64,000 nt of DNA, taken from positions 496,001 to 560,000 of the forward strand of contig NZ_OY782759.1 in NCBI RefSeq assembly GCF_963678195.1, in the 5' to 3' direction. Source of the DNA: an uncultured Hyphomonas sp. (GTDB lineage: Bacteria; Pseudomonadota; Alphaproteobacteria; Caulobacterales; Hyphomonadaceae). The position numbers and the translations under genes were made by a program. Numbering within the stretch: the first letter of the stretch is position 1; the number at the start of each line of letters is the position of its first letter. This document shows, one piece after another, positions 46,678-64,000 of this stretch. The notes under the pieces were generated by a model that did no database searches, was not told where the DNA came from, and saw only the letters and a program-made list of their open reading frames with translations.

Positions 46678-47007
46678 TTTCATCTCCTCAAACAGATTTC
46701 CCGGGGCGTTGACGCGGTCATTCATGCGCCTTGCAATCAGGCCAGACCCCATTCGCCTTGAGGTGGGATGTGCCGTGTCGGGAACCTGTCCCGGATTCGT
46801 CCATGAGGCGAATTGTCGGGATTCCGGTCCGATCAGGCGATTTACCTTGGCGTGGCCCTGTTTTCGGGCGAATGTGGCGCCTCAAGTGCGCCAATTCAGA
46901 GCGCCCGGGTGGGGAAATCTGCGGCACGTCATTTGCAGACCCGGAAAAGTAGATTCGCGCGGAGGCTGGATGTTTCCGCGCATGACTGTTCAGGAGTGGA
47001 GATTATC
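46678..47007. other. 330-base gap without recognisable gene
   Basis: The stretch between tRNA-Val and the GDP-mannose epimerase-like gene has no convincing frame, terminator or repeat. A small CGGGAACCTGTCCCG hairpin lies near 46780. It probably holds the promoter and leader of the epimerase gene. Confidence 0.5.
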
Positions 47008-47985
47008 ATGAAATCGGTACTGGTCTGCGGCGCGGGCGGCTTCATCGGGGGACATCTGGTCCGCCGTCTCAAGCGGGAAGGCTATTGGGTGCGCGGCGTC
47101 GACCTTAAAATGCACGAATTCGCCGAGACCGAAGCAGACGATTTTGTCGTCGGGGACCTGCGCGACCAGTCTCTGGTTCGCGAAGTGGTGGACCGCAAGT
47201 TCGACGAGATCTACCAGCTGGCCGCCGACATGGGCGGGGCAGGCTATATCTTCACCGGCGAAAACGATGCCGACGTGATGCACAACTCCGCCACGATCAA
47301 TCTGAACGTTCTGGATGCGGCCCATAAGCGTAACTGCAAGCGCATCTTCTATTCTTCCTCGGCCTGCATGTATCCGGCCTATAATCAGGAAGACCCGGAC
47401 AATCCGAACTGCCGCGAAGACAGCGCCTATCCGGCCGCTCCGGACAGCGAATATGGCTGGGAGAAACTGTTCTCCGAACGCCTCTACCTTTCCTACAACC
47501 GCAATCACGGCATGGAAGCGCGCGTTGCGCGTTACCACAACATCTTCGGGCCGCAGGGCACCTGGGATGGCGGCAAGGAAAAGGCCCCGGCCGCGCTCTG
47601 CCGCAAGATCGCCAGGGCAAAATCCGGCGACTCGATCGAGATCTGGGGCGATGGCCAGCAGACCCGCTCGTTCCTCTATGTCGATGAATGCCTGGAAGGC
47701 ACGATCCGCCTGACCCGGTCTGACTTCGAAGGGCCGGTGAATGTCGGGTCTGAGGAAATGGTGACCATCAACCAGCTCGCCATGATGATTGCCGATGTTG
47801 CCGGCAAGAAGATCGAGCTGGAGCATATTCCGGGACCACTGGGCGTGCGTGGCCGCAATTCCGAAAATTCGCTGATCTCTGAAAAGCTTGGCTGGTCGCC
47901 GAGCCAGCCGCTGAAAACCGGTCTCGAAAAGACCTATGAGTGGATCGAGCGCCAGGTGCATTCCAATGCACGGGCGGTGGCCTGA
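47008..47985 (+). CDS. GDP-mannose 3,5-epimerase-like sugar epimerase
   Basis: A 325-residue extended SDR. GAGGFIGGHLVRRLKREG binds NAD, and Tyr149/Lys153 (EYGWEK) form the SDR pair. The sequence follows plant GDP-mannose 3,5-epimerase closely: LAADMGGAGYIF, SSSACMYPAYNQ, RYHNIFGPQGTW, GGKEKAPAALCRK, WGDGQQTRSFLYVDEC and GVRGRNS. Cys120 and Lys192 align with the plant acid/base pair Cys145 and Lys217 at the same 72-residue spacing. The likely product is GDP-L-galactose or GDP-L-gulose for surface glycan. GGAGTGGAG precedes the ATG. Standing alone near the second glycan region. Confidence 0.85.
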   Translation: MKSVLVCGAGGFIGGHLVRRLKREGYWVRGVDLKMHEFAETEADDFVVGDLRDQSLVREVVDRKFDEIYQLAADMGGAGYIFTGENDADVMHNSATINLNVLDAAHKRNCKRIFYSSSACMYPAYNQEDPDNPNCREDSAYPAAPDSEYGWEKLFSERLYLSYNRNHGMEARVARYHNIFGPQGTWDGGKEKAPAALCRKIARAKSGDSIEIWGDGQQTRSFLYVDECLEGTIRLTRSDFEGPVNVGSEEMVTINQLAMMIADVAGKKIELEHIPGPLGVRGRNSENSLISEKLGWSPSQPLKTGLEKTYEWIERQVHSNARAVA

Positions 47986-48629: not shown

Positions 48630-49520
48630 TCAGGCGAGATCGCGGAAAGAGATCAGCTCGATCCCTTTTGCGGCCACTTCCGCTTTGACGGTGTCTGCCT
48701 TCAGGGCGGAAAGCTCGTGCGCCCAGCTATAGCCCCAGTGGAGCTTGTCTGAGGCCGGGTCGTCTTCCCCCGGATGGCACATGAGTTCACAGGTGCCCGT
48801 TTGCGGCATCGCCGCGATGACTTTCAGCAGGGCGTCCGTGTCGAGCTTGCCGCCGAAATAGAAACCCGCGAAGCGGTCCGTCGTCGGGCCGAAGCCTTTC
48901 CCGCCGCGGCGGCAGAAATGGTTGAGCACCAGCTGCTGTGCCACGCGCGAAAGTCCGCCGGGCGAGGTCAGCATATAGGGGCTGACCGGTTCTCGCGGCA
49001 GGCGCATCGGGGCGATGCCGTGTTTGCGGCCAAGCTCCTGCGCGACCTTGAGAATGCCCGGCAGCATGTGGACGTGCTGATGGCTGTCGAGATGGGAAAT
49101 CTGGAGACCTGCTTCCTGGATGCGGGCGATCTGGGCATCCAGTTCCAGCCGCACTTCCTCCGGATTGATCAGGCCCCGGAAATAATGCTTTGCAAACACG
49201 GTGATGTGTTTGTGGAAATGGCCGGTCTCGTCGATAAGGCTGGGGATTTTCGCCGGATCGCTCAGCGGGCGTTCCTCAATCAGGGTGAGGTGGACGCCGA
49301 TGTCGAGCGACGGGGTCGCTTTTGCCGATTTGACGGCATGATCGAAGGCAGGCGCGCAGGCCATGATCGAGGTGGAGGTCAGGATGCCATTAAGATGCGC
49401 ATCGACGATACCGTCATTCACCCGCTCGGACAGGCCGAAATCGTCCGCATGCACGATCAGGCGCAGGCCGTCTTTCGCGGCCTTGTCCGGTGTTGGCGAG
49501 TGAGAGACGGTTTCGGTCAT
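48630..49520 (-). CDS. ChbG/YdjC-type carbohydrate deacetylase (HpnK/NaxD-like)
   Basis: A 296-residue metal-dependent deacetylase. LRLIVHADDFGLSERVNDGI (metal ligand aspartates 26/27), SHLDSHQHVHMLPGI (the two histidine ligands) and the C-terminal ELMCHPGEDD are family signatures. Relatives include HpnK and Francisella NaxD, which deacetylates undecaprenyl-phosphate GalNAc. The last gene of a six-gene operon, overlapping the GT-C gene by 4 bases. Context with a polyprenyl-P glycosyltransferase and a GT-C enzyme favours a NaxD-like role over hopanoid synthesis. Confidence 0.85.
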   Translation of the reverse strand: MTETVSHSPTPDKAAKDGLRLIVHADDFGLSERVNDGIVDAHLNGILTSTSIMACAPAFDHAVKSAKATPSLDIGVHLTLIEERPLSDPAKIPSLIDETGHFHKHITVFAKHYFRGLINPEEVRLELDAQIARIQEAGLQISHLDSHQHVHMLPGILKVAQELGRKHGIAPMRLPREPVSPYMLTSPGGLSRVAQQLVLNHFCRRGGKGFGPTTDRFAGFYFGGKLDTDALLKVIAAMPQTGTCELMCHPGEDDPASDKLHWGYSWAHELSALKADTVKAEVAAKGIELISFRDLA

Positions 49521-51097
49521 GGCGCGGCAGGGGCCTCGGCGATTGTCGGGAAGGCATACCAGATTTCGGTGTCATCACGCGAGTGGATGACAACCGGTTC
49601 GCGCCCGCCGGAACGTTCGCTGGCGCGCTTCATCAGACGGTCGAACCGCTCGTCCAGCCAGCGCGGCTGGTACTTCGATGTGCGCAGGATATAGACCGTT
49701 GGCGTCTCGCCATAGGTCGGGCCGTAGCCCCACGGCCAGTTGCGGGTGGAGGCCACATAGTCCGGATCGAAATAGGGGATCTGGAAGCGGACCGTGTCCG
49801 GATCGTTTTCCGGGAAGAGCAGCGTGTCGCCCCAGGGATAGAGTTCCACAGTCGTCAGCCCGTCTTCCTGGATCCCGTTCATATAGGCTTCCAGCACCGC
49901 GCGGTCTTCCGGCGTGAAGTAGGGCACATCGTCGGCGATCACCATGCCGTCGACGTTCAGCTCCTGAAGGTAACCTTTCGGGCCTTCGATCCGGCCGGTC
50001 TTCAGGAAGAAAAGGCCTGCCACGGCGACGAGGGCGAGCGAGGCGCCGAGCGAAATCAGCGTATTGCCGGGATAGCGCAGGCGCACCTGTTTGACGACAA
50101 TCTCGATCAGGGCGAGGGCGGCGAGCAGATAGGCGAAATCGTTGAACACGTCATACCATTGCTCCTCGCGCACGCGGCTCATCAGCCAGGCACCGACAGC
50201 GAAAGCGGTGAGGTGCGCAACCGGCACCTTGCGCCAGACAGCCAGCGCCCAGATCGCGAAGATCGACGCAAGGCCCACGCCATGCCAGCCGCCGAATTCC
50301 AGGGTGCCTTTATTGGCCGAGGTTGTCTCCGACATGCGGTAGGCGAGGTCATGTTCGAAGGCGGCCCAATGGGTGAAGATGTAGAGCGCCTGCGCGGCCC
50401 AGGCAGCGACGCCGATGCCGATCACGATCATGCCGGTACGGTTCGGCCAGTTTTTCCACAGCTTGCCGGCGAAGATGGCGTAGAAGAAGACCGGTGCGCC
50501 CATCAGCATGGCGTTCGGGTGGATTACGGCAGACCCGCCAAGCAGGCCGAGCGCCACCCAATAGCGTTTGTTCTGAACCAGCAGCAAGGCTGCGCAGATG
50601 ATCGCGAACATGATCGCTTCCATCCGCGCATTGTTGGCCATGGAAACGAAATGCCCGTTCAGCAGGAAGGCGCCGATCAGGATCAGGCTGACCGCGGCGA
50701 TCTTGCGAGTACGCATAGCGGTGGCGAGCAGGCCGAAGCCGGCCAGCGTCGCGACGAGGGAGACCGCGCGGGCGATTTCCAGCGAAAAGCCGGTGACCTT
50801 GAAGATCAGCCCCAGGATGAGGGGATAGCCATAAGGCAGCAGCAGGAGCGGCCGGTCCGGGTCGATTTCCGGTGCGATGAAATCATTCCAGCGCTCAAAC
50901 CCGCGTGCCTGCCAGAGGAAGTAGGCTTCGTCGCCCCATGGGGCGGGCAGGGTAAGTCCGGCGGCCATGTGAACGGCGATCATCAGGATACCAACGATGG
51001 CCACGCCCGCGAGGAAGAGGCCTGTGCGCAATGTCCAGCTGTCGTCCCCGCCGCGCAGGAAGCGCATGAGTTTCTGAAGTGTCTGAGCAGCGTCCAT
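49517..51097 (-). CDS. GT-C membrane glycosyltransferase (ArnT/PMT-like)
   Basis: A 526-residue protein with about 10-11 membrane helices and a periplasmic C-terminal domain (~residues 385-526). The first periplasmic loop carries APWGDEAYFLWQARG, the acidic site typical of GT-C enzymes that use polyprenyl-phosphate sugars. The sequence is poorly conserved elsewhere. It overlaps the deacetylase gene by 4 bases and lies 37 bases after the CapD-like gene. Predicted to transfer a lipid-linked sugar to an envelope acceptor, which is not identified. Confidence 0.82.
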   Translation of the reverse strand: MDAAQTLQKLMRFLRGGDDSWTLRTGLFLAGVAIVGILMIAVHMAAGLTLPAPWGDEAYFLWQARGFERWNDFIAPEIDPDRPLLLLPYGYPLILGLIFKVTGFSLEIARAVSLVATLAGFGLLATAMRTRKIAAVSLILIGAFLLNGHFVSMANNARMEAIMFAIICAALLLVQNKRYWVALGLLGGSAVIHPNAMLMGAPVFFYAIFAGKLWKNWPNRTGMIVIGIGVAAWAAQALYIFTHWAAFEHDLAYRMSETTSANKGTLEFGGWHGVGLASIFAIWALAVWRKVPVAHLTAFAVGAWLMSRVREEQWYDVFNDFAYLLAALALIEIVVKQVRLRYPGNTLISLGASLALVAVAGLFFLKTGRIEGPKGYLQELNVDGMVIADDVPYFTPEDRAVLEAYMNGIQEDGLTTVELYPWGDTLLFPENDPDTVRFQIPYFDPDYVASTRNWPWGYGPTYGETPTVYILRTSKYQPRWLDERFDRLMKRASERSGGREPVVIHSRDDTEIWYAFPTIAEAPAAP

Positions 51098-51134
51098 GCG
51101 CCTGGCTCCTCCAAACTTGCCGCTGTTGAGACGG

Positions 51135-52358
51135 CTACATTCTCTGATCGAGATTCTTTTCGGTTTCGATGTGCGCGAAGTTCGGGATCACCGAGGCAAT
51201 GGTTTCCACCACATCGGCTTTCTGCACCTTGCCGGACGTGTCGCTGACGAGGGCTTCCAGCCGGTCGATAAAGTCCGGACCGATCTTCGCCTTGGCGTGG
51301 CGGATCGCGAGGATGCTTTCCATGCCGATCTCGTGCGAGGTCTCGTCGGCGCCGACGAATTCCTCGTACGGCTTCTCGCCGGACGTATCGAGCGGGGTCA
51401 GGAGGAGGGGCCATTTGCCCTGCTTGCGCAGCGCGGCCACTTCATGGCGGGCTTCGGCCTCGTCCTCGAACGGGACGGCTTCGAAGCCGGTGAGTTTCAG
51501 CACGTCAGCCGCAATGGTTTCCAGAAGGCGCAGCTCTTTTTCCGGGTCGAGGCGCGGGATGATGATCTCATCCTGTCCGCCAAGCAGCGACGCCAGCAGG
51601 CAGATTTCGCCTGCTTCGGCCCGGGTCACGAAATAGCGGCGCGTGCCGCGCGGCGCGGCCAGCGGCTGGCCGAGCTCGATCCGGCGCAGCCAGGCCTGCG
51701 GCAGGCTGCCATTGGAGAAGAGGACGTTGGCGAACCGCGCCGACGACACGTTCATGCCGGCGGTGGGGCTCGCGCTGAACAGGACATCTTCCATCAGGCG
51801 TTTGGTGGCGCCCATCAGGCTGGTCGGGTTGGCGGCCTTGTCGGTGGAAACGCCGAAGAAACGCGCCGTGCCGCCGCGCGCCGCGATCCAGGATTTGAAC
51901 CGCGCCTGGCGCACGACGTTCGTGTCCAGCATCTGCAGCAGGGAATAGATGTCCTTTTCCGAGCGGACATGTTTCAGGGCCGCGAAATTCATCACGATGT
52001 CGTAGGGATCTTCGGAATTGATCAGACGTTCCGTGACCGGGGCGCCGAAATTGATCGGCCACATGCGCAGGTCGAGGCCCGCCGGAAGGTCCATGCCGGA
52101 GCGCAGGTCCCGCACGAGTTCCGCGAGATAGTTTTCCGAATGATCGATGACGTGGATGGCAGCCGGCGCGAAGCGGATCAGGGCACGGAGCGTGGCCGAG
52201 CCGATGGAACCGCCGCCGCCGACGATCAGGACACGCTTGCCGGTGACGGTCTCGCGGATGCGGGCTTCATTGGCCGCAATGTCGCCTTCAAAGAAGGAGC
52301 GGGCGCGCGCCACGACATGCTGGTCGAACCGGTCGGGGGAGAGATCGCTCATGCTCAC
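51135..52358 (-). CDS. CapD/FlaA1-like nucleotide-sugar dehydratase (extended SDR)
   Basis: A 407-residue soluble SDR. GKRVLIVGGGGSIGS (residues ~40-54) binds NAD(P). The catalytic YxxxK is replaced by Met182-Gly-Ala-Thr-Lys186 (MGATKRLME), as in CapD/FlaA1/PglF-type 4,6-dehydratases. FFGVSTDKAANP precedes it. Unlike PglF or WbpM there are no N-terminal membrane helices. Probably makes a 4-keto-6-deoxy amino sugar from a UDP-N-acetylhexosamine. Overlaps the downstream GT2 gene's stop by 4 bases on the operon's upstream side. Confidence 0.83.
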   Translation of the reverse strand: MSMSDLSPDRFDQHVVARARSFFEGDIAANEARIRETVTGKRVLIVGGGGSIGSATLRALIRFAPAAIHVIDHSENYLAELVRDLRSGMDLPAGLDLRMWPINFGAPVTERLINSEDPYDIVMNFAALKHVRSEKDIYSLLQMLDTNVVRQARFKSWIAARGGTARFFGVSTDKAANPTSLMGATKRLMEDVLFSASPTAGMNVSSARFANVLFSNGSLPQAWLRRIELGQPLAAPRGTRRYFVTRAEAGEICLLASLLGGQDEIIIPRLDPEKELRLLETIAADVLKLTGFEAVPFEDEAEARHEVAALRKQGKWPLLLTPLDTSGEKPYEEFVGADETSHEIGMESILAIRHAKAKIGPDFIDRLEALVSDTSGKVQKADVVETIASVIPNFAHIETEKNLDQRM

Positions 52359-53338
52359 GATACGGTCTCCTTGCGGGCACCGGCGTCAGCGTCTGCATTG
52401 GCGCCGAACTTGTCGCCGACGAGGTAACGCGGACGGTTTTTCACTTCGTCGAAGATTAGGCCGACATATTCGCCGAGCACGCCGAGGAAGAAGAGGTTCA
52501 TCGACAGGCCGAAGGCGCCGAGCGCGAACAGCGACGCCCAGCCGGGTACGACGATGTCTTCGAAGAAGAGGTAGACGGTGAGGTAGTAAGCGCCGGACAG
52601 CGCGCTGAAAGTGGCGAAGATCAGGCCAAGCCAGATGCAGACGCGCAAAGGCAGCTTCGAGAAGGAAAAGATGCCATTCGTCGCAAACAGGATCAGCGCG
52701 GCGAGGGAATAGTTCGACTGGCCTGCAAAGCGTTTCTCCGGGACGAAGGAAACGTAAGAGATGCGATAGCCCACCCAGGTGACGAGACCGCGGAAGAACG
52801 GGTTGTGTTCGCGGAACTGGGTCCGGAATACATCGGCGACTTTGCGGGACAGGAGGCGGAAATCGGCCGACCCGGCGTTCAGGTCGATCCCGGTCATGCG
52901 TTCGAACACGCCATAGAACATGCGCGAGGTGACGCGCTTGCCGAAGGAGATTTTCTGATCGTCATGGCGGAGCGTCTGGACGATTTCGGAGCCGCCGCGC
53001 CATTCCTCGATCAGTTTCGGGATCAGCGAGGGCGGGTGCTGCATGTCGCTGTCCAGCATGATGACGGCGTCGCCGCGCGTCTCGTCGATGCCGGCAATCA
53101 GGGCCGCCTGGTGGCCGAAGCGGCGGGACATCACCAACACGGTGACATCGTCTGTCTTCTCGGCGATGCCCTGAAGGATTTCCGCACTGCGGTCCGGCGG
53201 GGACGGGTCAACGACATAGATGTAGCGGAATTTGTACTCGCCATAGAGCGGCTGGGTCGCTTCGATCAGCGCTTTGTGGAAGGTTTCGATTGCCGCTTCC
53301 TCGCGGAAGACCGGGCAGACGACATCAATACTCAACAT
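52355..53338 (-). CDS. polyprenyl-phosphate glycosyltransferase (GtrB/DPM1-like GT2)
   Basis: A 327-residue GT2 with a cytosolic catalytic half and two C-terminal membrane helices (~residues 228-255 and 262-295). IDVVCPVFREEAAIETF, ALIAGIDETRGDAV and the metal motif MLDSDMQHPP (Asp96, Asp98) are typical. The usual DDGS stretch reads VDPSPPDRS, a variant. It should load a sugar from a nucleotide donor onto polyprenyl phosphate for the GT-C enzyme. Overlaps both neighbours on the same strand. Confidence 0.9.
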   Translation of the reverse strand: MLSIDVVCPVFREEAAIETFHKALIEATQPLYGEYKFRYIYVVDPSPPDRSAEILQGIAEKTDDVTVLVMSRRFGHQAALIAGIDETRGDAVIMLDSDMQHPPSLIPKLIEEWRGGSEIVQTLRHDDQKISFGKRVTSRMFYGVFERMTGIDLNAGSADFRLLSRKVADVFRTQFREHNPFFRGLVTWVGYRISYVSFVPEKRFAGQSNYSLAALILFATNGIFSFSKLPLRVCIWLGLIFATFSALSGAYYLTVYLFFEDIVVPGWASLFALGAFGLSMNLFFLGVLGEYVGLIFDEVKNRPRYLVGDKFGANADADAGARKETVS

Positions 53339-54222
53339 GGGCTTAGGGCCTCGATCACCGATTTCATACCGTTTTCAAATTCGACCTGCGGACGCCAGCC
53401 TGTGGCAGCCGTCAGGGCGGAGATGTCTGCTACGACATCCATGACTTCATTTTCGCGGCGTTCGCCGCGGTCCGAATAGGGCTTGTCCGTGCCGGCCGCC
53501 TTCAGCAAGGCGGCGATCACGTCGCCCACAGAATGGGACTTGCCGGAGCCGACATTGTACGTGCCGCCGCCGGACATGCCGATTGTGCTGATCATCGCGT
53601 CCACCACATCGTCCACATGGACGAAATCCCGGCGCGGGGCGAGGTCCGCCACGACGATTTCCTTCACCGACGGGTCAACTGCCTGGCGGGCAATCGTTGG
53701 TATCAGGAAGGAGTCCTTCTGGCCGGGACCGAACGCGTTGAAGAGGCGCAGCACGGTCACGTCCAGGCCAAAATTTTTCGCGAAGAAACGGCAGGCGTCC
53801 TCCGCGGCAAGCTTCGACCAGGCATAGGGATTGGCCGGGGCAGGCGGGAAATCTTCCGACACCGGCACCGGGGCACCGGCGCCATAGACGAAAGTGCTGA
53901 TGAAGGTCATCGGCACGCCCGCTTTGCGGCACTGGTCCAGCACGCGCACGGTGCCGTGCGTGTTCACGAGATGATAGGTGGCAGGATCATTCCAGCTGTC
54001 CGGCACGAAGGAGAGTGCGCCCAGATGGAAGACGTGGCCGGCGCCTTCGAGCGGCAGCTCGCCGGACAGCAGGTCGCCGCCGGTGGAGCGGGAGAAGCCT
54101 TTCACCTCAACGCCCGATGCCTGCAGGCGCGCCGTCAGACGGCGTCCTACAAAACCGGTTTCCCCGGTCACAACAATGCGGCCGGGGAGGGGGCGTTTCG
54201 CGATCGGGTCAGTTGCCGGCAC
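53332..54222 (-). CDS. NAD-dependent epimerase/dehydratase (RMD-like SDR)
   Basis: A 296-residue extended SDR. RIVVTGETGFVGRRL binds the cofactor, the Tyr/Lys pair is in NPYAWSKLAAED, and RRDFVHVDDVVDAM with TYNVGSGKSHSV closes the substrate domain. It resembles GDP-4-keto-6-deoxymannose reductases and related nucleotide-sugar enzymes. The exact substrate is unknown. Its stop overlaps the GT2 start by 7 bases, and its start is one base after the nucleotidyltransferase stop. Confidence 0.85.
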   Translation of the reverse strand: MPATDPIAKRPLPGRIVVTGETGFVGRRLTARLQASGVEVKGFSRSTGGDLLSGELPLEGAGHVFHLGALSFVPDSWNDPATYHLVNTHGTVRVLDQCRKAGVPMTFISTFVYGAGAPVPVSEDFPPAPANPYAWSKLAAEDACRFFAKNFGLDVTVLRLFNAFGPGQKDSFLIPTIARQAVDPSVKEIVVADLAPRRDFVHVDDVVDAMISTIGMSGGGTYNVGSGKSHSVGDVIAALLKAAGTDKPYSDRGERRENEVMDVVADISALTAATGWRPQVEFENGMKSVIEALSPC

Positions 54223-54223
54223 G

Positions 54224-54943
54224 TCAGAGTCCCAGCTTTTCGCTCAGTTCGGGCCATTCGTCGACGGCGCGGAAGTAGTCGTCCGGCCGGCCGATATCGA
54301 GCCAGTAGCCTTCATGCGTCTGGACGCTGACATCGCGCTTTTCGTCCAGGAAGCGGAGCATCAGCTGGTCAAAGCCATAGGCCTGATCTTCGGGGATGAA
54401 GTCCAGCACACGGCGGCTGAGGCAGTAGACGCCCATTGAGACGAGATAAGGCGTGCGCGGCTTCTCGGTGAAGGAGACAAGATGGTCTTCCTCGCAGCCA
54501 AGCACACCATAATCGATCAGCTGTTCGCGCTTGGACGCGGCGATGGTGAAAAGGCGGTCTTCGTCGGCATGGCTCGCAAAGAAGTCGCCGAAATCGAGGT
54601 CGCAGAGAATGTCGCCATTCATGACGATGAAATTCTCCGGCAAATCCTTCATCAGGTGAAGCGGGCCCATGGTGCCGAGCGGCTTGGTCTCCAGGGAGTA
54701 TTCGATGCTGACGCCGAGCTGGCTGCCATCGCCGAAATAAGCGCGCAGGATGTCGGCCTGGTGGTTCACCGCCAGGATGATGCGGCTGAAACCCTTCTGG
54801 GCCAGCTGCTTGATGATGACTTCAAGGATCGGGGAGTCGCCGACCGGCATGAGGGGTTTCGGCAGCACGACCGTATATGGGCGCAGCCGCGATCCGAGGC
54901 CCCCCGCCAGAATGACGGCTGTGCGGCCGGTGTCGTTGCTCAT
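54224..54943 (-). CDS. sugar-1-phosphate nucleotidyltransferase (HddC-like)
   Basis: A 239-residue NTP transferase. AVILAGGLGSRLRPYT (residues ~10-24) and LPKPLMPVGDSPILEV are the nucleotide-binding motifs, IVMNGDILCDLDF holds the metal Asp, and GYWLDIGRPDDYFRA is the conserved end. The closest resemblance is to D-glycero-D-manno-heptose-1-phosphate guanylyltransferases and mannose-1-P guanylyltransferases. A heptose-kinase-like gene lies 3.2 kb away on the other strand. First gene of the six-gene minus-strand operon. Confidence 0.85.
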   Translation of the reverse strand: MSNDTGRTAVILAGGLGSRLRPYTVVLPKPLMPVGDSPILEVIIKQLAQKGFSRIILAVNHQADILRAYFGDGSQLGVSIEYSLETKPLGTMGPLHLMKDLPENFIVMNGDILCDLDFGDFFASHADEDRLFTIAASKREQLIDYGVLGCEEDHLVSFTEKPRTPYLVSMGVYCLSRRVLDFIPEDQAYGFDQLMLRFLDEKRDVSVQTHEGYWLDIGRPDDYFRAVDEWPELSEKLGL

Positions 54944-55150
54944 ATGAATACTCCTGTCCCCAGTCTGTGCAGCGCGTAGCGTCTGTTCGGATTACCCCAA
55001 GAAGGCTGCAATAACCTTGCCATTTAAACAGGAAATTTCACTCGCGTCTGGTGTAAATCGGAACACTTTCCGGGCGAGTGGGTGAAAGACCGCCAGCCCC
55101 ATCAGGAGATTCCGGTCGACTGGCATGCCTGATGCAGAAATTCCAGAGTC

Positions 55151-57073
55151 ATGAACGCTGATGCCACTCGTAATCCGGTCCATCAGGACCCCGGTGCAAA
55201 ACCGGGCTACCGGGCAGATGTGGACGGGCTGCGCGCCGTCGCTGTGGTGGCGGTCCTCTTCTTTCATGCGGGATGGAGCCGGTTTTCCGGCGGGTTTGCC
55301 GGGGTCGACGTGTTTTTCGTCATTTCCGGTTTCGTGATTGCGCTCAGCCTGTTCCGGGACCTGGATTCCGGGCGTTTCTCGCTGAGCGGCTTCTTTGCCC
55401 GGCGGGCGCTTCGCATCCTGCCGGCACTGACGGTGGTCCTGCTGGGCACATTGCTGGTCAGCCTCGTGATGGTACCGCCGGTCTATTTCCAGCCTTTCGC
55501 GGATAGTCTGATCGCGGCATCGCTGTTCTTTTCGAACGTGCATTTCTGGCAGACCAGTTCCTACTTCAACAATGACATGCCGTTCCGGCCGCTGCTGCAC
55601 ACCTGGTCGCTGGGGGTGGAGGAGCAGTTCTATCTGGCTGCGCCGGTGTTGTTGCTGCTGATCCAGCGATTTCTGGCCGGGCGCTGGCGGCTGGTGGTGA
55701 CGCTCTGCCTGATCGCCTCATTCGGCGTGAACCTTTATGCCATTCGCCACGGCCATCTGGACGCTGCCTTCTATCTGCCTTTTACGCGGGCCTGGGAATT
55801 CCTGCTGGGGGTGCTGATTGCGCTCTTGCCGCGGCCGGGCCTGCCGCGCGGCTGGAACGAGCTGGGCACGCTGGCGGGCCTCGCGATGATCGCCGGATCT
55901 GTGCTTCTGTTCGGGCCAGGCACGCCGTTTCCGGGCGTTGCCGCACTCGGGCCCTGCCTTGGGGCCGGGCTGGTGATCTGGTTCGGCAAACCGGCGGGAG
56001 AAGGGAGCGTCCCGCTCGTGTCGCGCGTTCTGGCGCTGAAACCCGTCGTCTGGACCGGGCGGATTTCCTATTCGCTCTACCTTGTGCACTGGCCGGTGCT
56101 GGTGCTGGCGCCCTTTCTGATGATGCGCCGGCTCACCCTGCCGGAGACATTCGCTGCGCTTGGCCTCTGCATCCTGCTCGCCTGGCTGGTTTACCGCTTT
56201 GTCGAGACGCCGATGCGGCAGATCCGCTGGAGAACCCCCGCTGTGCTGGTGGCTGCATTGGTCTGCGCGACTGGCACGGCGGCGGCCGGATGGGCTGGCG
56301 CGAAGGTCAATGCCCGCCTGTTCGCTGATCAGCCCGCTTATCAGCGCGTGCCGGACTTTCACGCCGCCGAACAGGCCTGGCGCGTTGGCACCTGCCTCCT
56401 GCGCGACCGTCAGAGCTGGACGGACTGGCAGGCCGGCGCCTGCACGATCGGTGACGGCGAAGCGCCGCCCGTCCTGTTGTTCGGCGACTCCTTTGCGGCA
56501 CATTATGTTCCGGGCCTTGTCCGGAAAGGCGGGACGAACGGGGCGCCGGTCATTGAATACGCGATGGAGGGATGCCCGCCGACATTGGCGCCGGACAGTC
56601 CCGGTACGCCAGCCTGCCAGGCCTTCCGCGCTCAGGCTGTCGAACTGGCGACCCGCCTCGGCGCGGACCATGTGATCGTCGCGGGCAGCTGGCTGGAATA
56701 TGGCCCCGGCATTTCCATGCAGGCAGACAGTACATTAACCGCCTTCAAGGCTGCAGGTATTGAGGTGACGCTGGTCGGCCAGTCGCCGAATTTCCATATT
56801 CCCCCTTACATGATCCTCGCCCGGACGGTGCCGCCGGAAGCGCAGCAGGCGAGCCTGCCGCTCAGCGCAGAGGCCAGGGCGATGAACGCAAGACTGGCGC
56901 GTCTCGCTGCGCGAAACGGGGCGGCATTCATCGACCCGGCCGCCTTGCTCTGCCCGGGTGGCATTTGTCCGGTCCGCCTGGCAGGGGAGGATCTTTATCT
57001 CGATTATGGCCATTTCACACAGGCAGGCTCCATCGAGGCGGCTGGCGCTGTGTTCCCGGATCGGATTCCCTGA
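55151..57073 (+). CDS. OafA-like acyltransferase with C-terminal SGNH domain
   Basis: A 640-residue protein. Residues ~15-380 form the acyltransferase-3 domain with about 10-11 membrane helices, including YRADVDGLRAVAVVAVLFFH (catalytic His), FFVISGFVI and LHTWSLGVEEQFYL. Residues ~420-640 form a periplasmic SGNH-like domain with VLLFGDSFAAHYVPGL (nucleophile Ser) and DYGHFTQAGSIEAA (His). Such fusions O-acetylate O-antigen, capsule or peptidoglycan. It is 207 bases from the divergent operon. Confidence 0.92.
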   Translation: MNADATRNPVHQDPGAKPGYRADVDGLRAVAVVAVLFFHAGWSRFSGGFAGVDVFFVISGFVIALSLFRDLDSGRFSLSGFFARRALRILPALTVVLLGTLLVSLVMVPPVYFQPFADSLIAASLFFSNVHFWQTSSYFNNDMPFRPLLHTWSLGVEEQFYLAAPVLLLLIQRFLAGRWRLVVTLCLIASFGVNLYAIRHGHLDAAFYLPFTRAWEFLLGVLIALLPRPGLPRGWNELGTLAGLAMIAGSVLLFGPGTPFPGVAALGPCLGAGLVIWFGKPAGEGSVPLVSRVLALKPVVWTGRISYSLYLVHWPVLVLAPFLMMRRLTLPETFAALGLCILLAWLVYRFVETPMRQIRWRTPAVLVAALVCATGTAAAGWAGAKVNARLFADQPAYQRVPDFHAAEQAWRVGTCLLRDRQSWTDWQAGACTIGDGEAPPVLLFGDSFAAHYVPGLVRKGGTNGAPVIEYAMEGCPPTLAPDSPGTPACQAFRAQAVELATRLGADHVIVAGSWLEYGPGISMQADSTLTAFKAAGIEVTLVGQSPNFHIPPYMILARTVPPEAQQASLPLSAEARAMNARLARLAARNGAAFIDPAALLCPGGICPVRLAGEDLYLDYGHFTQAGSIEAAGAVFPDRIP

Positions 57074-57188
57074 TCAGGAGTCTGTTTCATTCAGATACAC
57101 CAATTTGGGGAATCTCGCCTGAATAGGGCGGATTTGTCTCGCTTTGGTGGATTCTGACTGGATTCCTGTGGTGTGAGAGTTGCTATAG

Positions 57189-58175
<987 letters not shown>

Positions 58176-58184
58176 GGCCTCGTA

Positions 58185-59222
58185 ATGATCATTGTCCGCA
58201 GCCCGCTTCGTGTCTCCTTCTTCGGAGGCGGTACCGATCACCCTTCCTGGCTGGAGCGCGGGGAGAAGGGGGCCGTGCTGTCGACGTCGATCGATAAGTA
58301 CATCTACATCCAGCTGCGCCGCCTGCCGGCGGTGTTCGATTTCAACTATCGCGTCGCCTGGGGCATGCTGGAAGAGGTCTCGACGATCAACGAGATCCAG
58401 CATCCGGTCGTGCGCGAAGTGCTGAAACACTATGCCGGCGACAATGAGACGGGCTATGAAGTGATCCACAACTCCGACCTGCCATCCAAGTCTGGACTCG
58501 GATCGTCTTCCTCGTTCACTGTGTCGCTGTTGCATGCCTTTTACGGCAACCAGGAAATGCTCTGTTCCAAGAAGAAGCTGGCGCGTGAAGCCATCTTTGT
58601 TGAGCAGAAGCTTCTCGGTGAAACCGTCGGCTACCAGGATCAGATCGCGGCAGCTCATGGCGGCCTGAACCGGATCGAGTTTACCGAGGACGGCGATTAT
58701 GACATCTCTCCCATCCGCCTGCCGGCTTCACGCCGCGCGGCGCTGGAAGACTCTATGATGCTGTTCTTCACCGGCTTCACCCGCTTTGCCGACGAGATCG
58801 AAAAACGCAAAGTGGCGAAGTTCGGTGACCGGACGAAAGAGCTGCGTGAAATCTACGACATGGTCGGCGAGGGTGAACGTATCCTCACGGATCCGTCCCG
58901 CGACATCAATGATTTCGGCGCGCTGCTGCACCAGACCTGGCTCAACAAGAAAGCGCTGGACGCCTCGGTTTCCAATCCGGAAATCGATGAGCGCTATGAG
59001 GCGGCCCTCAAGGCCGGCGCGCTTGGCGGAAAGCTTCTGGGCGCAGGCGGCGGTGGCTTCCTGCTGATGTTCGTGCCACCGGATAAGCGCGCTGCTGTTC
59101 TGGCTGCCATGAAAGGCATGACCCATGTGCCGCTGCGCATGGAGCGGAGCGGATCGCAGGTCGTTCTTTACGATCCGGAACTGGATTCCAACTATCTTCC
59201 CGCCGGGGCCAAGGTTTCCTGA
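58185..59222 (+). CDS. hddA: GHMP kinase, D-glycero-D-manno-heptose 7-phosphate kinase-like (HddA)
   Basis: A 345-residue GHMP-superfamily kinase. It begins IIVRSPLRVSFFGGGTDHP, typical of heptose/fucose-type sugar kinases, has the P-loop PSKSGLGSSSS (residues ~100-110), and ends with GGKLLGAGGGGFLLMFVP (motif 3). HddA phosphorylates heptose 7-phosphate at C1 to allow GDP activation. No GmhA or GmhB lies in the window. Between a GDP-heptose-dehydrogenase-like gene and an aminotransferase gene, 2 bases from the latter. Confidence 0.83.
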   Translation: MIIVRSPLRVSFFGGGTDHPSWLERGEKGAVLSTSIDKYIYIQLRRLPAVFDFNYRVAWGMLEEVSTINEIQHPVVREVLKHYAGDNETGYEVIHNSDLPSKSGLGSSSSFTVSLLHAFYGNQEMLCSKKKLAREAIFVEQKLLGETVGYQDQIAAAHGGLNRIEFTEDGDYDISPIRLPASRRAALEDSMMLFFTGFTRFADEIEKRKVAKFGDRTKELREIYDMVGEGERILTDPSRDINDFGALLHQTWLNKKALDASVSNPEIDERYEAALKAGALGGKLLGAGGGGFLLMFVPPDKRAAVLAAMKGMTHVPLRMERSGSQVVLYDPELDSNYLPAGAKVS

Positions 59223-59224
59223 AC

Positions 59225-60637
59225 ATGATTGAGGTTGATGTGTCTGCACAAACGGCTGCCATGAGCTGCGCGCAAGGCGATGCTTTGTTCGCCGGGCTTG
59301 AAAAGGCATTGGACAATGGACGGGGCTTCGTCTTCGTCACCGATGCGGCCGGCAAGCTGGCCGGCTATGCTGACCTCGCGATGATGCGGGAAGCCTTCAT
59401 GAAAGGCGGCCATCTTTCTGGCCAGACGGTTGGCGATGTCGCAGCGCCCTGGGGCACGGCGACAGAAACGCTGGGTGTGGAACCCGTTCTGGACGGCGAA
59501 GGCCGTCTCAGCGGGATCGACGAATCTGGCCCGCAACCTTTCCTGCCGGTGTCCGAACCGGACCTGACACACCGCGAAATGCGCAACGCATTTGATGCGT
59601 TCCTGTCGACCTGGATCTCCTCGACAGGCGATTACATCCGCCGCTTCGAACGGGAGTTCGCCGAAAAGATGGGCATGGCCCATGGCGTGGCGACCTCGAA
59701 CGGAACGGTTTCGCTGCATCTCGCCATGGCGACGCTGGGGATCGGGGAGGGGGACGAAGTGATCGTTCCGGACCTGACCTTCGCAGCGTCGATCAATACG
59801 GTGATGCATGTCGGCGCCCGGCCCGTCCTGGTCGATGTCGACCGGGATACCTGGTGTCTCTCCGCAGAAGCTGTCGAGCAGGCGATCACACCACGCACGC
59901 GCGCGATCATGCCGGTGCACGTCTTCGGCCGCCCGTCGCAGATGACGGAAATCGTTGAACTGGCACAAGCCCGCGGGCTCTACATTATCGAAGATTGTGC
60001 CGAGGCGCATGGCGCGAAATATGACGGCCAGCCGATCGGGTCCTTCTCGGATATTTCGAGCTTCTCCTTCTTTGCCAACAAGATCATTACCACTGGTGAA
60101 GGCGGCATCTGCCTGACCAATGATGCGGATATTGCCACACGCATGCGCATGCTGCGCGACCATGGTATGCGGCCGGAGCGCCGTTACTGGCACGAAGAGC
60201 CAGGCTTCAATTTCCGCATGACCAATATGCAGGCCGCCATCGGGTGCGCCCAGATTGAGCGGATGGATGAATTGCTGGCGATGCGCGCGGATGTGTATGA
60301 CCGCTATGTCAAAGCGCTGTCCGGCATTCCGGGCGTGTCTTTCCCGCCTGCCATGGATCAGCGCGCTCAGCCGGTGACCTGGTTTGCCTGTGCGCAGGTG
60401 CCGGAAGACAAGCGCGCCGACCTGATTGCTGCCTGCAAGGCGGCCAATATCGACCTGCGGCCTTTCTTCCATGGCTTGTCATCCATGCCGGCCTATCGTC
60501 AGTATGCCCGCAAATGCCCGAACAGCACCTGGCTGTCCCGGACGGGCGTCAATCTGCCAACCTCGCGCCGTGTGGACGATGCCATGGTGGCCCGGATTGC
60601 GGACGTGTTCGAAAGCGTGCTGGGCAAGAAAGCCTAG
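59225..60637 (+). CDS. DegT/DnrJ/EryC1/StrS aminotransferase with N-terminal CBS-like domain
   Basis: A 470-residue protein. Residues ~18-100 look like a CBS pair, the second degenerate (GFVFVTDAAGKLAGYAD, GQTVGDVAAP, VEPVLDGEGRLSGIDE). Residues ~105-470 form the sugar aminotransferase: TSNGTVSLHLAMATLGI, DEVIVPDLTFAASIN, EDCAEAHGAKYDG and the PLP lysine Lys286 in FFANKIITTGEGG. The core resembles GDP-perosamine synthase. It would aminate a 4-keto sugar. The CBS fusion is unusual for this family. Third gene of the operon. Confidence 0.88.
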   Translation: MIEVDVSAQTAAMSCAQGDALFAGLEKALDNGRGFVFVTDAAGKLAGYADLAMMREAFMKGGHLSGQTVGDVAAPWGTATETLGVEPVLDGEGRLSGIDESGPQPFLPVSEPDLTHREMRNAFDAFLSTWISSTGDYIRRFEREFAEKMGMAHGVATSNGTVSLHLAMATLGIGEGDEVIVPDLTFAASINTVMHVGARPVLVDVDRDTWCLSAEAVEQAITPRTRAIMPVHVFGRPSQMTEIVELAQARGLYIIEDCAEAHGAKYDGQPIGSFSDISSFSFFANKIITTGEGGICLTNDADIATRMRMLRDHGMRPERRYWHEEPGFNFRMTNMQAAIGCAQIERMDELLAMRADVYDRYVKALSGIPGVSFPPAMDQRAQPVTWFACAQVPEDKRADLIAACKAANIDLRPFFHGLSSMPAYRQYARKCPNSTWLSRTGVNLPTSRRVDDAMVARIADVFESVLGKKA

Positions 60638-62216: not shown

Positions 62217-63431
62217 ATGAGACTGGTGGCTCCCTTCGGCTTCTATGGCAGCGGCAATATCGGCGATGAGGCCACGCTGCTGGGTTTTGGCCGCCTGATT
62301 GAACGTTTTGGCGGTAGCATCGGGGTGGATGTCGCTTCCAGCGATCCGGCGCATACCAAACGGGTTGAACCCGCATTCCGCTATTACCAGTATGTCGACG
62401 GCATCATGGGCCTGCCAGCCAAGCTGCATGCGCATATGGGGGCAGGCTATATCATCCCGGGCGGCACGCCTCTGATGGACAATCTGGGCGACTGGCCGCT
62501 CCTCAGCCTTGGCGGTATGCTCCAGCATGCGGGGAACTGGGGTAAGCCGGCGGCCTTTGTCGGGGTCGGTGTCGAACAGCTGCGCCATGATATTTCCCGC
62601 CAGCGCGTCCAGGAACAGATCATTCCGAATGTCATGTGCTGGAGCGTGCGAAGCGTGCACGACCGGGATCGTTTGCTAGACCTCGGCGTTGCACCAGACC
62701 TGATTACCGTGGCGGCCGACATGGCCTGGCTGCTGGATCCGGCGGACCCGGCCTATGGCCGCAAGGTGACACAGCGACTTGGGCTGGGCGGCCGCCCGGT
62801 CATCGGGGTCAATATCAATGCCGAAGACCATATGGTCGAAAAGGCCCCGCGACTGTTTACGGAACTGGCCGCCGGGCTAGACGAACTGATCAACCGTCAC
62901 GGCGCCCGCATCCTGTTCCTCTTCAATGAAGTCCGGGAAGGGGAGACCTATGATCAGGCGGCGGCGGAGCTGGTCCGCTCCCTGATGGCGCGCAAGGATG
63001 CCGTCCTGATGGGGCCGACAGATTATCTGACGCCGCAGGAGATGATGTCGATCATCGCACAATGTGCCATGACGATCTCGACGCGCTATCATTTTTGCGT
63101 CTTTTCCGCGCTTCAGGGCGTGCCATTCCTCGGGATCCGGCGGTCTGACAAGGTCAGCGACCTGTGCCGGGACCTCGGCTGGAAGGCGGCGGTGGATCCG
63201 GACACGGCAACGGGTGCAGATTTTGCCAGTACAGGTGACCGGTTGCTTGGCGACCCGGCTGCGGACCTGAAGAAACTGGCGGACAAGATTGCTGGTATGC
63301 GCGTGCGGGCAGAGGACAATCAGATCGCGCTGGAGGCCTTATTGCAGGCCATGCGCGGCGTAGGAATGCAGACCTGGGTGCGTCATGCCGCCAGCCGGGT
63401 CGGACAGAAATTGGGGGGTGGGGTTCGATGA
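62217..63431 (+). CDS. polysaccharide pyruvyl transferase family protein
   Basis: A 404-residue protein of the WcaK/CsaB type. FGFYGSGNIGDEATLLGFGRL at the N-terminus, PGGTPLMDN, GVGVEQL and the C-terminal MTISTRYHFCVFSALQGVPFLGI with SDKVSDL follow the family order. These enzymes add ketal pyruvate to sugars or, in some groups, act as glycosyltransferases. It overlaps the next glycosyltransferase gene by 4 bases (ATGA). Confidence 0.85.
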   Translation: MRLVAPFGFYGSGNIGDEATLLGFGRLIERFGGSIGVDVASSDPAHTKRVEPAFRYYQYVDGIMGLPAKLHAHMGAGYIIPGGTPLMDNLGDWPLLSLGGMLQHAGNWGKPAAFVGVGVEQLRHDISRQRVQEQIIPNVMCWSVRSVHDRDRLLDLGVAPDLITVAADMAWLLDPADPAYGRKVTQRLGLGGRPVIGVNINAEDHMVEKAPRLFTELAAGLDELINRHGARILFLFNEVREGETYDQAAAELVRSLMARKDAVLMGPTDYLTPQEMMSIIAQCAMTISTRYHFCVFSALQGVPFLGIRRSDKVSDLCRDLGWKAAVDPDTATGADFASTGDRLLGDPAADLKKLADKIAGMRVRAEDNQIALEALLQAMRGVGMQTWVRHAASRVGQKLGGGVR

Positions 63432-64000
63432 AGCCCGAAAATACAAGAGTTCTGGTCATCACGGGCGTCTTTCCGCCCATGCCGATTGCCGAGGGGGATC
63501 ATATCGCCCGCCTCAGCCAGGGGCTGGCGGACCGCGGCTATTCGGTTGATGTGCTGACCAGCACGCAGGCGGATGGAAAAAGCGTCAAAGGCTGCCGCGT
63601 GCATGCTGAGATCGAGCATTGGAACTGGGCGTCTCAGGGCAAGGTTCTGCGCTTTGCCCAGGACCTGAAGCCGGACCTGATCTTCATCTGGTTCATCGGC
63701 ATGGCGTTCGAGTTCCATCCGATGATTTCACTGATCCCGACGCGCCTGAAGGCGGTCCTGCCGGACACGCAGATCGTCACCCAGATCACGGCGCCGGTCG
63801 GTGTGCGTCCGAAGGATCATCCGTTCCTGACCCGGCTGAACCTGAAATTGTCTACGCGTGCGCTCGGCGGTGACAATATCAGTTATGAATATGGCACGAT
63901 CCTGCGCGACTGCGACCGCGTAATCGCCATGGCAAAGCCGCACCTGGAGCGTTTTGCCGAGCACATGCCGGACCTGGAAGACAAGGCCGTCATCATTCCG
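63428..64000 (+). CDS. glycosyltransferase (GT-B), 3' end outside window
   Basis: 191 codons of an open frame starting ATG 63428, overlapping the upstream stop by 4 bases and running off the right edge. The N-terminus VLVITGVFPPMPIAEGDHI, then ARLSQGLADRGYSVDVLTS, is the typical acceptor-side Rossmann of GT4-like enzymes. YEYGTILRDCDRVIAMAKPHLERF fits the same domain. The donor domain is missing, so the family is not certain. Confidence 0.75.
   Translation, partial: MKPENTRVLVITGVFPPMPIAEGDHIARLSQGLADRGYSVDVLTSTQADGKSVKGCRVHAEIEHWNWASQGKVLRFAQDLKPDLIFIWFIGMAFEFHPMISLIPTRLKAVLPDTQIVTQITAPVGVRPKDHPFLTRLNLKLSTRALGGDNISYEYGTILRDCDRVIAMAKPHLERFAEHMPDLEDKAVIIP

Follow-up and report, generated by a model that had tools for sequence, protein, structure and literature searches.

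The DNA stretch analysed here (the window) comprises 64,000 nucleotides, bases 496001-560000 of the genome of an uncultured Hyphomonas sp., which is a single contig of 3,672,159 bases (genome G000 below). It contains genes of a candidate pathway to a GDP-linked 4-aminoheptose. As listed in Table 1, three of these genes form a plus-strand operon (57243-60637) encoding a short-chain dehydrogenase/reductase (SDR), an HddA-like kinase, and a DegT/DnrJ/EryC1 aminotransferase, with gaps of 9 and 2 bases between the genes, respectively. This operon had been proposed in an initial annotation of the sequence and was confirmed, with the three open reading frames (ORFs) in place. A second run of genes begins near the window end with genes for a polysaccharide pyruvyl transferase family protein and a GT4 glycosyltransferase, and continues outside the window with genes for an HddC-GmhB fusion (start 681 bases from the window end) and an AGE-family isomerase. 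The first three genes of this run are joined by successive 4-base overlaps, and the AGE gene follows after a 10-base gap.

Table 1. Features of the two gene runs in window coordinates, continued past the window end
Feature	Position	Strand	Evidence or remark
Cj1427-type SDR	57243..58175	+	403 bits to 6vo6; YGITK motif
HddA-like kinase	58185..59222	+	NF049969 143.3 bits; HddA-type solved structures
DegT/DnrJ/EryC1 aminotransferase, pyridoxal phosphate (PLP) lysine K286; predicted C4-aminotransferase on GDP-4-keto-heptose	59225..60637	+	perosamine synthetases 304-307 bits
Aminotransferase N-terminal extension, ~104 aa, CBS-like in appearance	59225..59536	+	no significant Pfam match
Polysaccharide pyruvyl transferase family protein	62217..63431	+	PF04230 80 bits; end overlaps next gene by 4 bases
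GT4 glycosyltransferase, gene start, leaves window	63428..64000 (to window-equivalent 64684)	+	ORFs; Pfam, NCBIfam
HddC-GmhB fusion, outside window	64681-65889		follows GT4 gene; Pfam, NCBIfam
AGE-family isomerase, outside window	65900-67045		follows HddC-GmhB fusion; PF07221 214 bits

Judged by sequence, the SDR is a clear relative of Cj1427. Its best match of known structure is 6vo6, an entry titled 'putative sugar-nucleotide epimerase/dehydratease', which we take to be Cj1427 itself; the score is 403 bits, whereas the next distinct solved sequence reaches 99.8 bits, and the likeness to Cj1427 stated in the initial annotation is thus upheld. The extended-SDR YxxxK motif is present as YGITK from residue 142. 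Homologues of the SDR (E ≤ 1e-60) are found in 30 of the 385 genomes of the class, the own genome counted. Neighbourhoods were compared for 20 of the 29 homologues other than that of the window, and all 20 contain an HddA homologue inside the same 20-kb stretch. The kinase carries the GHMP kinase motif, and its best structure matches are the HddA-type entries 4usm, 4usk, 3k85, and 4n3o (124-132 bits), in agreement with its earlier description as HddA-like.

The solved proteins nearest to the aminotransferase are the perosamine synthetases 3dr7, 3bn1, and 3dr4 (304-307 bits), and the PLP lysine is kept as K286, so that its placement as a GDP-perosamine-synthase-like enzyme stands. The lysine is also present in all four aligned operon relatives, which have the motif NKIITTGEGG in common with the window protein. 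In Ensifer and Hyphomicrobium, the aminotransferase gene (~60% identity) is kept in third place after those of the SDR and HddA. The N-terminal extension of ~104 residues gives no significant match in Pfam and is found in four lysine-type relatives; its CBS-like identity is a guess made by eye, the fold model being too poor to use (pLDDT 53, from 4 sequences). In histidine-type partners of related SDRs (n = 15), the site of the extension is occupied by at most 11 residues in 11 proteins and by 28-153 residues in the other 4, for which the ORF starts are mechanical.

These histidine-type partners, in which a histidine replaces the PLP lysine (SHHISTMEGG type), are the DegT partners in 15 of the 20 SDR neighbourhoods (L043, L045-L047, L049-L058, and L060), and 14 of them lie less than 700 bases from the SDR. 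A lysine-type partner occurs in one neighbourhood, that of the same-genus genome G183, and no close DegT partner was found in the remaining 4 of the 20. The partner from L043, the one of the 15 that was searched, scores 395-400 bits against ColD-type entries, and the next match scores 171 bits. Because of this ColD likeness, the sequences suggest that the histidine-type sister operons make GDP-3-deoxyheptoses via a ColD-type enzyme. A 4-keto sugar is required by both ColD-type enzymes and aminotransferases, and partners of the two kinds therefore both support a 4-keto intermediate. It is unlikely that the DegT enzyme of the window acts on some other keto sugar, e.g., GDP-4-keto-6-deoxymannose or a UDP sugar. 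Its nearest named kin, i.e., perosamine synthase and the LegC/PseC models, and its unusual extension without a family would be compatible with such a substrate; however, it stands third in an operon after the SDR and HddA, in an order that is retained in Ensifer and Hyphomicrobium, and partners of the ColD kind (1 of 15 searched) in the other SDR neighbourhoods also need a GDP-4-keto sugar.

The fusion protein consists, according to Pfam and NCBIfam, of an NTP_transferase domain and a GmhB-type phosphatase domain, the latter ~1.4 kb past the window end. Among solved proteins, it is closest to 2gmw, a heptose bisphosphate phosphatase (114.8 bits), and the fusion travels with the SDR in the relatives L121, L122, L126, and L133. 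The initial annotation had instead proposed the guanylyltransferase-like gene at 54224-54943 (minus strand) as HddC, at a distance of 3.2 kb from the operon. The distance is 2.3 kb, and the gene scores 111.8 bits with the HddC model (cut-off 300) and higher, 147.6 bits (cut-off 440), with a mannose-1-phosphate guanylyltransferase model. It was rejected as the likely HddC of the pathway because it leads a divergent operon and no counterpart was found in the L121 and L133 stretches. On sequence grounds, the fusion is the likelier HddC, and the 54224 nucleotidyltransferase probably lies outside the heptose pathway. In G183, as in the window, the SDR operon has a nucleotidyltransferase of the 54224 type next to it.

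The AGE-family protein following the fusion was modelled through its Hyphomonas johnsonii counterpart (pLDDT 96.7), and Foldseek matches the model, which has the (alpha/alpha)6 barrel of the AGE superfamily, to glucose 2-epimerase, D-mannose isomerase, and YihS (TM-score of 0.77-0.88 by query length). Residues R53, R59, H174, E232, H235, and H361 are kept in all 26 heptose-linked AGE sequences counted; as in YihS, H235 and H361 would be the catalytic histidines. The own genome encodes a second AGE, which falls in the other large clade of the family tree, the one that holds fusions of AGE with ManC.

The initial annotation had recorded both GmhA and GmhB as absent from the window. A GmhB domain is now located just beyond its end, whereas a search of the own genome and of G183 gave no match to PF13580 (SIS_2) or TIGR00441 for GmhA. 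The genome encodes an HldE (465.5 bits, cut-off 521), two GmhB-type phosphatases (the domain of the fusion and a second GmhB-like gene), and the AGE in the heptose operon. Most likely, heptose-7-phosphate is supplied by an enzyme other than GmhA. A SIS_2 match is found in 27 of the 30 SDR-bearing genomes, all except G000, G183, and the 70%-complete G226. SIS_2 is, however, wider than GmhA; among the 27, G164 lacks a TIGR00441 match, and those of G093 and G122 are weak (54 and 48 bits, respectively).

Genomes carrying related AGE genes were compared by aligning against genome contigs, and the best 80 of at least 543 confirmed AGE stretches were considered. A gene for HldE, HldD, GmhB, HddC, HddA, or the SDR lies within 5 kb of the AGE in 26 of these loci, 29 have ManC beside or fused to the AGE, and 25 lack both; L125, among the 26 heptose-linked loci, also has ManC. 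The heptose-linked loci cover both GDP- and ADP-heptose (hldE) settings. On the GDP side, the order HddC-GmhB, AGE, SDR, HddA, aminotransferase is found in Ensifer sp. USDA 6670 (L121) and a Hyphomicrobium metagenome-assembled genome (MAG) (L133), and H. johnsonii (L111), the nearest named relative seen, shows the gene order of the window from HddA through AGE over the stretch compared. On the ADP side, the sets are gmhB-AGE-hldE-hldD in Novosphingobium, hldE-AGE-gmhB in Lichenifustis (HldE 525.5 bits, above the cut-off of 521), and hldD-AGE-hldE-gmhB in Rhizobium, and several Acetobacteraceae have hldE-AGE pairs. In these genomes, GmhA-like proteins were counted by profile, and seven SIS_2 matches were checked with NCBIfam. 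Such a protein is present in 1 of 11 GDP-type genomes (that of L126; the count includes L125, known by its SDR only), 1 of 12 tested ADP-type genomes (that of L157; L138, L150, and L168 are outside the count), and 1 of 4 GmhB-only-type genomes (that of L164). The best SIS_2 match proved to be an N-acetylmuramic acid 6-phosphate etherase for the genomes of L121 and L135 and a member of another sugar isomerase family for those of L140 and L147; weaker matches (~22-40 bits) of unchecked identity occur in the L121, L135, L140, L154, L159, and L173 genomes. HldE was not found in the L121, L122, L126, and L133 genomes, where heptose would therefore be used through GDP only. In L118, titled a Klebsiella pneumoniae MAG, the AGE falls among alphaproteobacterial ones, and the bin may be mislabelled.

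A phylogenetic profile was prepared from 80 of the 102 genomes with HldE (19 were dropped by quality and 3 had a partial HldE), with GmhA scored as absent below 75 bits to TIGR00441, a cut set in this analysis, and AGE as present at E ≤ 1e-20. AGE occurs in 10 of the 17 genomes without GmhA versus 10 of the 63 with it (Fisher p = 0.0008, uncorrected for kinship); for AGE sequences scoring at least 100 bits to that of the window, the values are 10 of 17 versus 5 of 63 (p = 2e-5, with a post hoc cut and likewise uncorrected). The profile serves as support only, because of the uncorrected kinship and because a heptose gene was seen next to the AGE in just 4 of those 10 genomes (G000, G183, G026, and G158; flanks of ~1.5 kb).

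In a tree of 105 AGE sequences (29 heptose-linked, 29 ManC-linked, and 47 without a group, L125 being left out), the heptose and ManC contexts require 5 changes, versus a mean of 19.7 after shuffling. No clean signature of specificity residues parting the heptose-linked from the ManC-linked sequences was found. Clade membership alone was rejected as proof of heptose function, since 10 ManC-linked sequences share the clade of the window AGE. These 10 of the 29 ManC-linked sequences are also an argument that the AGE is only a mannose-6-phosphate isomerase lying in the cluster by chance, with heptose-7-phosphate coming from an unrecognised isomerase or from uptake, which we regard as improbable. 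It would further agree with the own genome having a ManC (365.8 bits, cut-off 372.95) and with the ManC-AGE fusions of Rhizobiales, in which AGE takes the place of the mannose-6-phosphate isomerase part of GMP_PMI. In the two fusions scanned, GMP_PMI matches the guanylyltransferase part only and AGE stands where the isomerase part would be; by their sequences, the AGE domains of such fusions point to mannose-6-phosphate isomerases. On the other hand, the AGE of the window lineage lies directly after HddC-GmhB and not ManC, 443 kb separate it from the own ManC, which has no AGE in the 13 kb inspected, and it is the second AGE of the genome that sits in the clade with the ManC fusions. In addition, 26 of the best 80 loci are heptose-linked through two nucleotide routes, mannose-6-phosphate should be useless to hldE operons, and two AGE copies are encoded in the genome G437, one beside ManC and one near hldE. 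In this last genome (L131 beside ManC; the other copy 1.3 kb from hldE, match to match), it looks as if two isomerase jobs had been divided. The ManC-AGE fusions are ~745-805 residues long and come mostly from Rhizobiales (L160-L162, L169, L171, L178, L183, L184, L187, and L190).

The assignment of the AGE-family protein to a heptose step leads to the following proposed pathway. The AGE-family isomerase, replacing GmhA, would convert sedoheptulose-7-phosphate to D-glycero-D-manno-heptose-7-phosphate. Judging from their families, the HddA-like kinase would then form the 1,7-bisphosphate, the GmhB domain would take off the 7-phosphate, and the HddC domain fused to it would produce GDP-heptose. 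The SDR, from its close family, is predicted to oxidise C4, and the DegT enzyme, given its retained lysine and its similarity to GDP-perosamine synthase, would aminate the 4-ketone with PLP. The neighbouring glycosyltransferases presumably put the sugar into a surface polysaccharide. The isomerisations of fructose-6-phosphate to mannose-6-phosphate and of sedoheptulose-7-phosphate to D-glycero-D-manno-heptose-7-phosphate represent one and the same reaction, ketose to manno-aldose, with homologous sugars as substrates, which makes a switch of the AGE family between the two substrates plausible; the first step is probably filled by the AGE-family isomerase in place of GmhA. GDP-4-amino-4-deoxyheptose is our best guess for the product, as the most economical outcome of an SDR, an HddA, and a lysine-bearing DegT enzyme in one operon. 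Its M-1 ion has a computed m/z of 633.10, compared with 634.08 for GDP-heptose. The earlier pathway interpretation is supported for the SDR, the kinase, the lysine-type DegT enzyme, and the product, but its choice of guanylyltransferase was probably wrong.

Mannose-6-phosphate and D-glycero-D-manno-heptose-7-phosphate have identical stereochemistry at C1-C5. This common stereochemistry, the ManC-linked sequences among the nearest AGE kin, and the perosamine synthase as the nearest solved aminotransferase would each allow an all-hexose route, in which mannose-6-phosphate formed by AGE is converted through mannose-1,6-bisphosphate and mannose-1-phosphate to GDP-4-amino-4-deoxy-D-mannose. Such a route is very improbable, however: the bisphosphate detour would be pointless for mannose, kinases and SDRs of these families accompany GmhA and GmhB in other genomes (L043 and L057), and no other enzyme of known structure is nearly as close to the SDR as Cj1427.

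Several observations weigh against the heptose pathway with AGE as its first enzyme. In the window genome, a distance of 4.0 kb, which includes a gene on the opposite strand, separates the SDR-HddA-aminotransferase operon from the HddC-GmhB-AGE run. The kinase scores 143.3 bits with the NCBIfam HddA model, far under the curated cut-off of 600, and the fusion is likewise below the cut-offs for GmhB (143.6 of 178 and 122.7 of 149.6) and HddC (105.4 of 300). For HddA, the cut-off seems to exclude the branch of the kinase, because neither of the two scanned relatives reaches it (119 and 123 bits), not even L043, which has GmhA and GmhB in its cluster. Beyond Hyphomonas, the smallest well-supported group around the window AGE contains 10 ManC-linked and 8 ungrouped sequences, and several of the genomes concerned lack HldE, so that the window AGE could be a mannose-6-phosphate isomerase. 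Three genomes (L126, L157, and L164) encode a GmhA-like protein as well as an AGE linked to heptose genes or GmhB. Conversely, the SDR-bearing genomes G122, G093, and G164 have neither a good GmhA nor an AGE seen in a heptose operon, and 7 of the 17 GmhA-less HldE genomes are also without AGE. At the thresholds of the profile, these seven are G008, G019, G084, G086, G091, G122, and G125; possible reasons are a diverged GmhA, a different replacement, or incompleteness of the assemblies.

With these points weighed, the sequences make it fairly probable that the window and the next 3 kb encode the complete route from sedoheptulose-7-phosphate to GDP-4-amino-4-deoxy-heptose. The balance tips slightly in favour of a wider proposal, namely that AGE is a second, unrelated replacement of GmhA in ADP- and GDP-heptose operons of Alphaproteobacteria (perhaps also a Mycolicibacterium), moved back and forth between mannose-6-phosphate and sedoheptulose-7-phosphate, and that the window lineage has added a Cj1427-type dehydrogenase and a C4-aminotransferase for the synthesis of GDP-4-amino-4-deoxyheptose, GDP-3-deoxyheptose being the probable product of related operons with a ColD-type enzyme.

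The remaining sugar-related genes near the operon include the minus-strand operon at 48630-54943, which encodes the 54224 nucleotidyltransferase, a LegB-like SDR, an ArnC/PgfS-like GT2 protein, a Polysacc_synt_2 protein, an ArnT-like protein (a weak PMT_2 match), and a YdjC deacetylase, and which we take to resemble lipid A amino-sugar systems of the FlmF2/NaxD/FlmK kind. A 640-residue acyltransferase of the AT3-SGNH kind (55151-57073) lies between the two divergent operons and could acylate one of the sugars. A further SDR at 46990-47985 has GDP-fucose synthase as its best NCBIfam match (130 of 500 bits), and we presume it to resemble a GDP-mannose 3,5-epimerase.

The probable use of AGE in place of GmhA is the more surprising point of this interpretation. 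Heptose biosynthesis is usually taken to start with GmhA. The enzyme is also pursued as an antibacterial target (PMC11056994). If the proposal is true, a non-homologous replacement of GmhA would explain heptose in hldE-positive bacteria without gmhA, and a role would be found for genes known just as AGE-family epimerases. Likewise, an amino-heptose linked to GDP would be an activated sugar not described before, judging by the open-licence literature searched: among the papers listed there, no GDP-linked amino-heptose and no aminotransferase acting with Cj1427 were found, nor was any role of the AGE family in sedoheptulose-7-phosphate isomerisation or heptose synthesis, both of which are weak negatives. 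The histidine-type sister operons, in turn, predict natural GDP-3-deoxyheptoses, compounds that PMC10680097 presents as novel and made in vitro, where Cj1427 and a C3-dehydratase give GDP-3-deoxy-4-keto-heptose.

Among known systems, the GDP-heptose scheme of Campylobacter jejuni is similar in steps 2-5, in which the families are the same, i.e., HddA, GmhB, HddC, and a Cj1427-type C4-dehydrogenase; it runs from GmhA through a kinase, a phosphatase, and a guanylyltransferase to the C4-dehydrogenase, and the bound NADH of Cj1427 is reoxidised by alpha-ketoglutarate in a ping-pong manner (PMC10680097). Unlike in C. jejuni, GmhA was not found in the window lineage, which has an AGE-family isomerase instead, and HddC and GmhB are fused. 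The ketone is also predicted to be aminated here, whereas the portions of PMC10680097 consulted name epimerases, reductases, and dehydratases, and no aminotransferase. The aminotransferase is like GDP-perosamine synthase (PerA/RfbE type; 3dr7 and 3bn1) in being a lysine-bearing DegT enzyme with an expected GDP-4-keto-mannose-like substrate. It differs in its additional 104-residue N-terminal part and in its partner, a Cj1427-type dehydrogenase and not GDP-mannose 4,6-dehydratase, so that the C6 hydroxyl group and C7 would be kept. The AGE has the fold and conserved histidines of D-mannose isomerase (5x32), YihS (2zbl and 7ag4), and glucose 2-epimerase (8h1l), but it is linked to heptose genes, and its predicted substrate is sedoheptulose-7-phosphate. 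A 4-amino-4-deoxyheptose is the sugar of septacidin and spicamycin. ADP-heptoses are intermediates of these antibiotics (PMC10948575). Their route is ADP-linked and found in antibiotic producers, whereas the route proposed here would be GDP-linked and lead to a surface polysaccharide.

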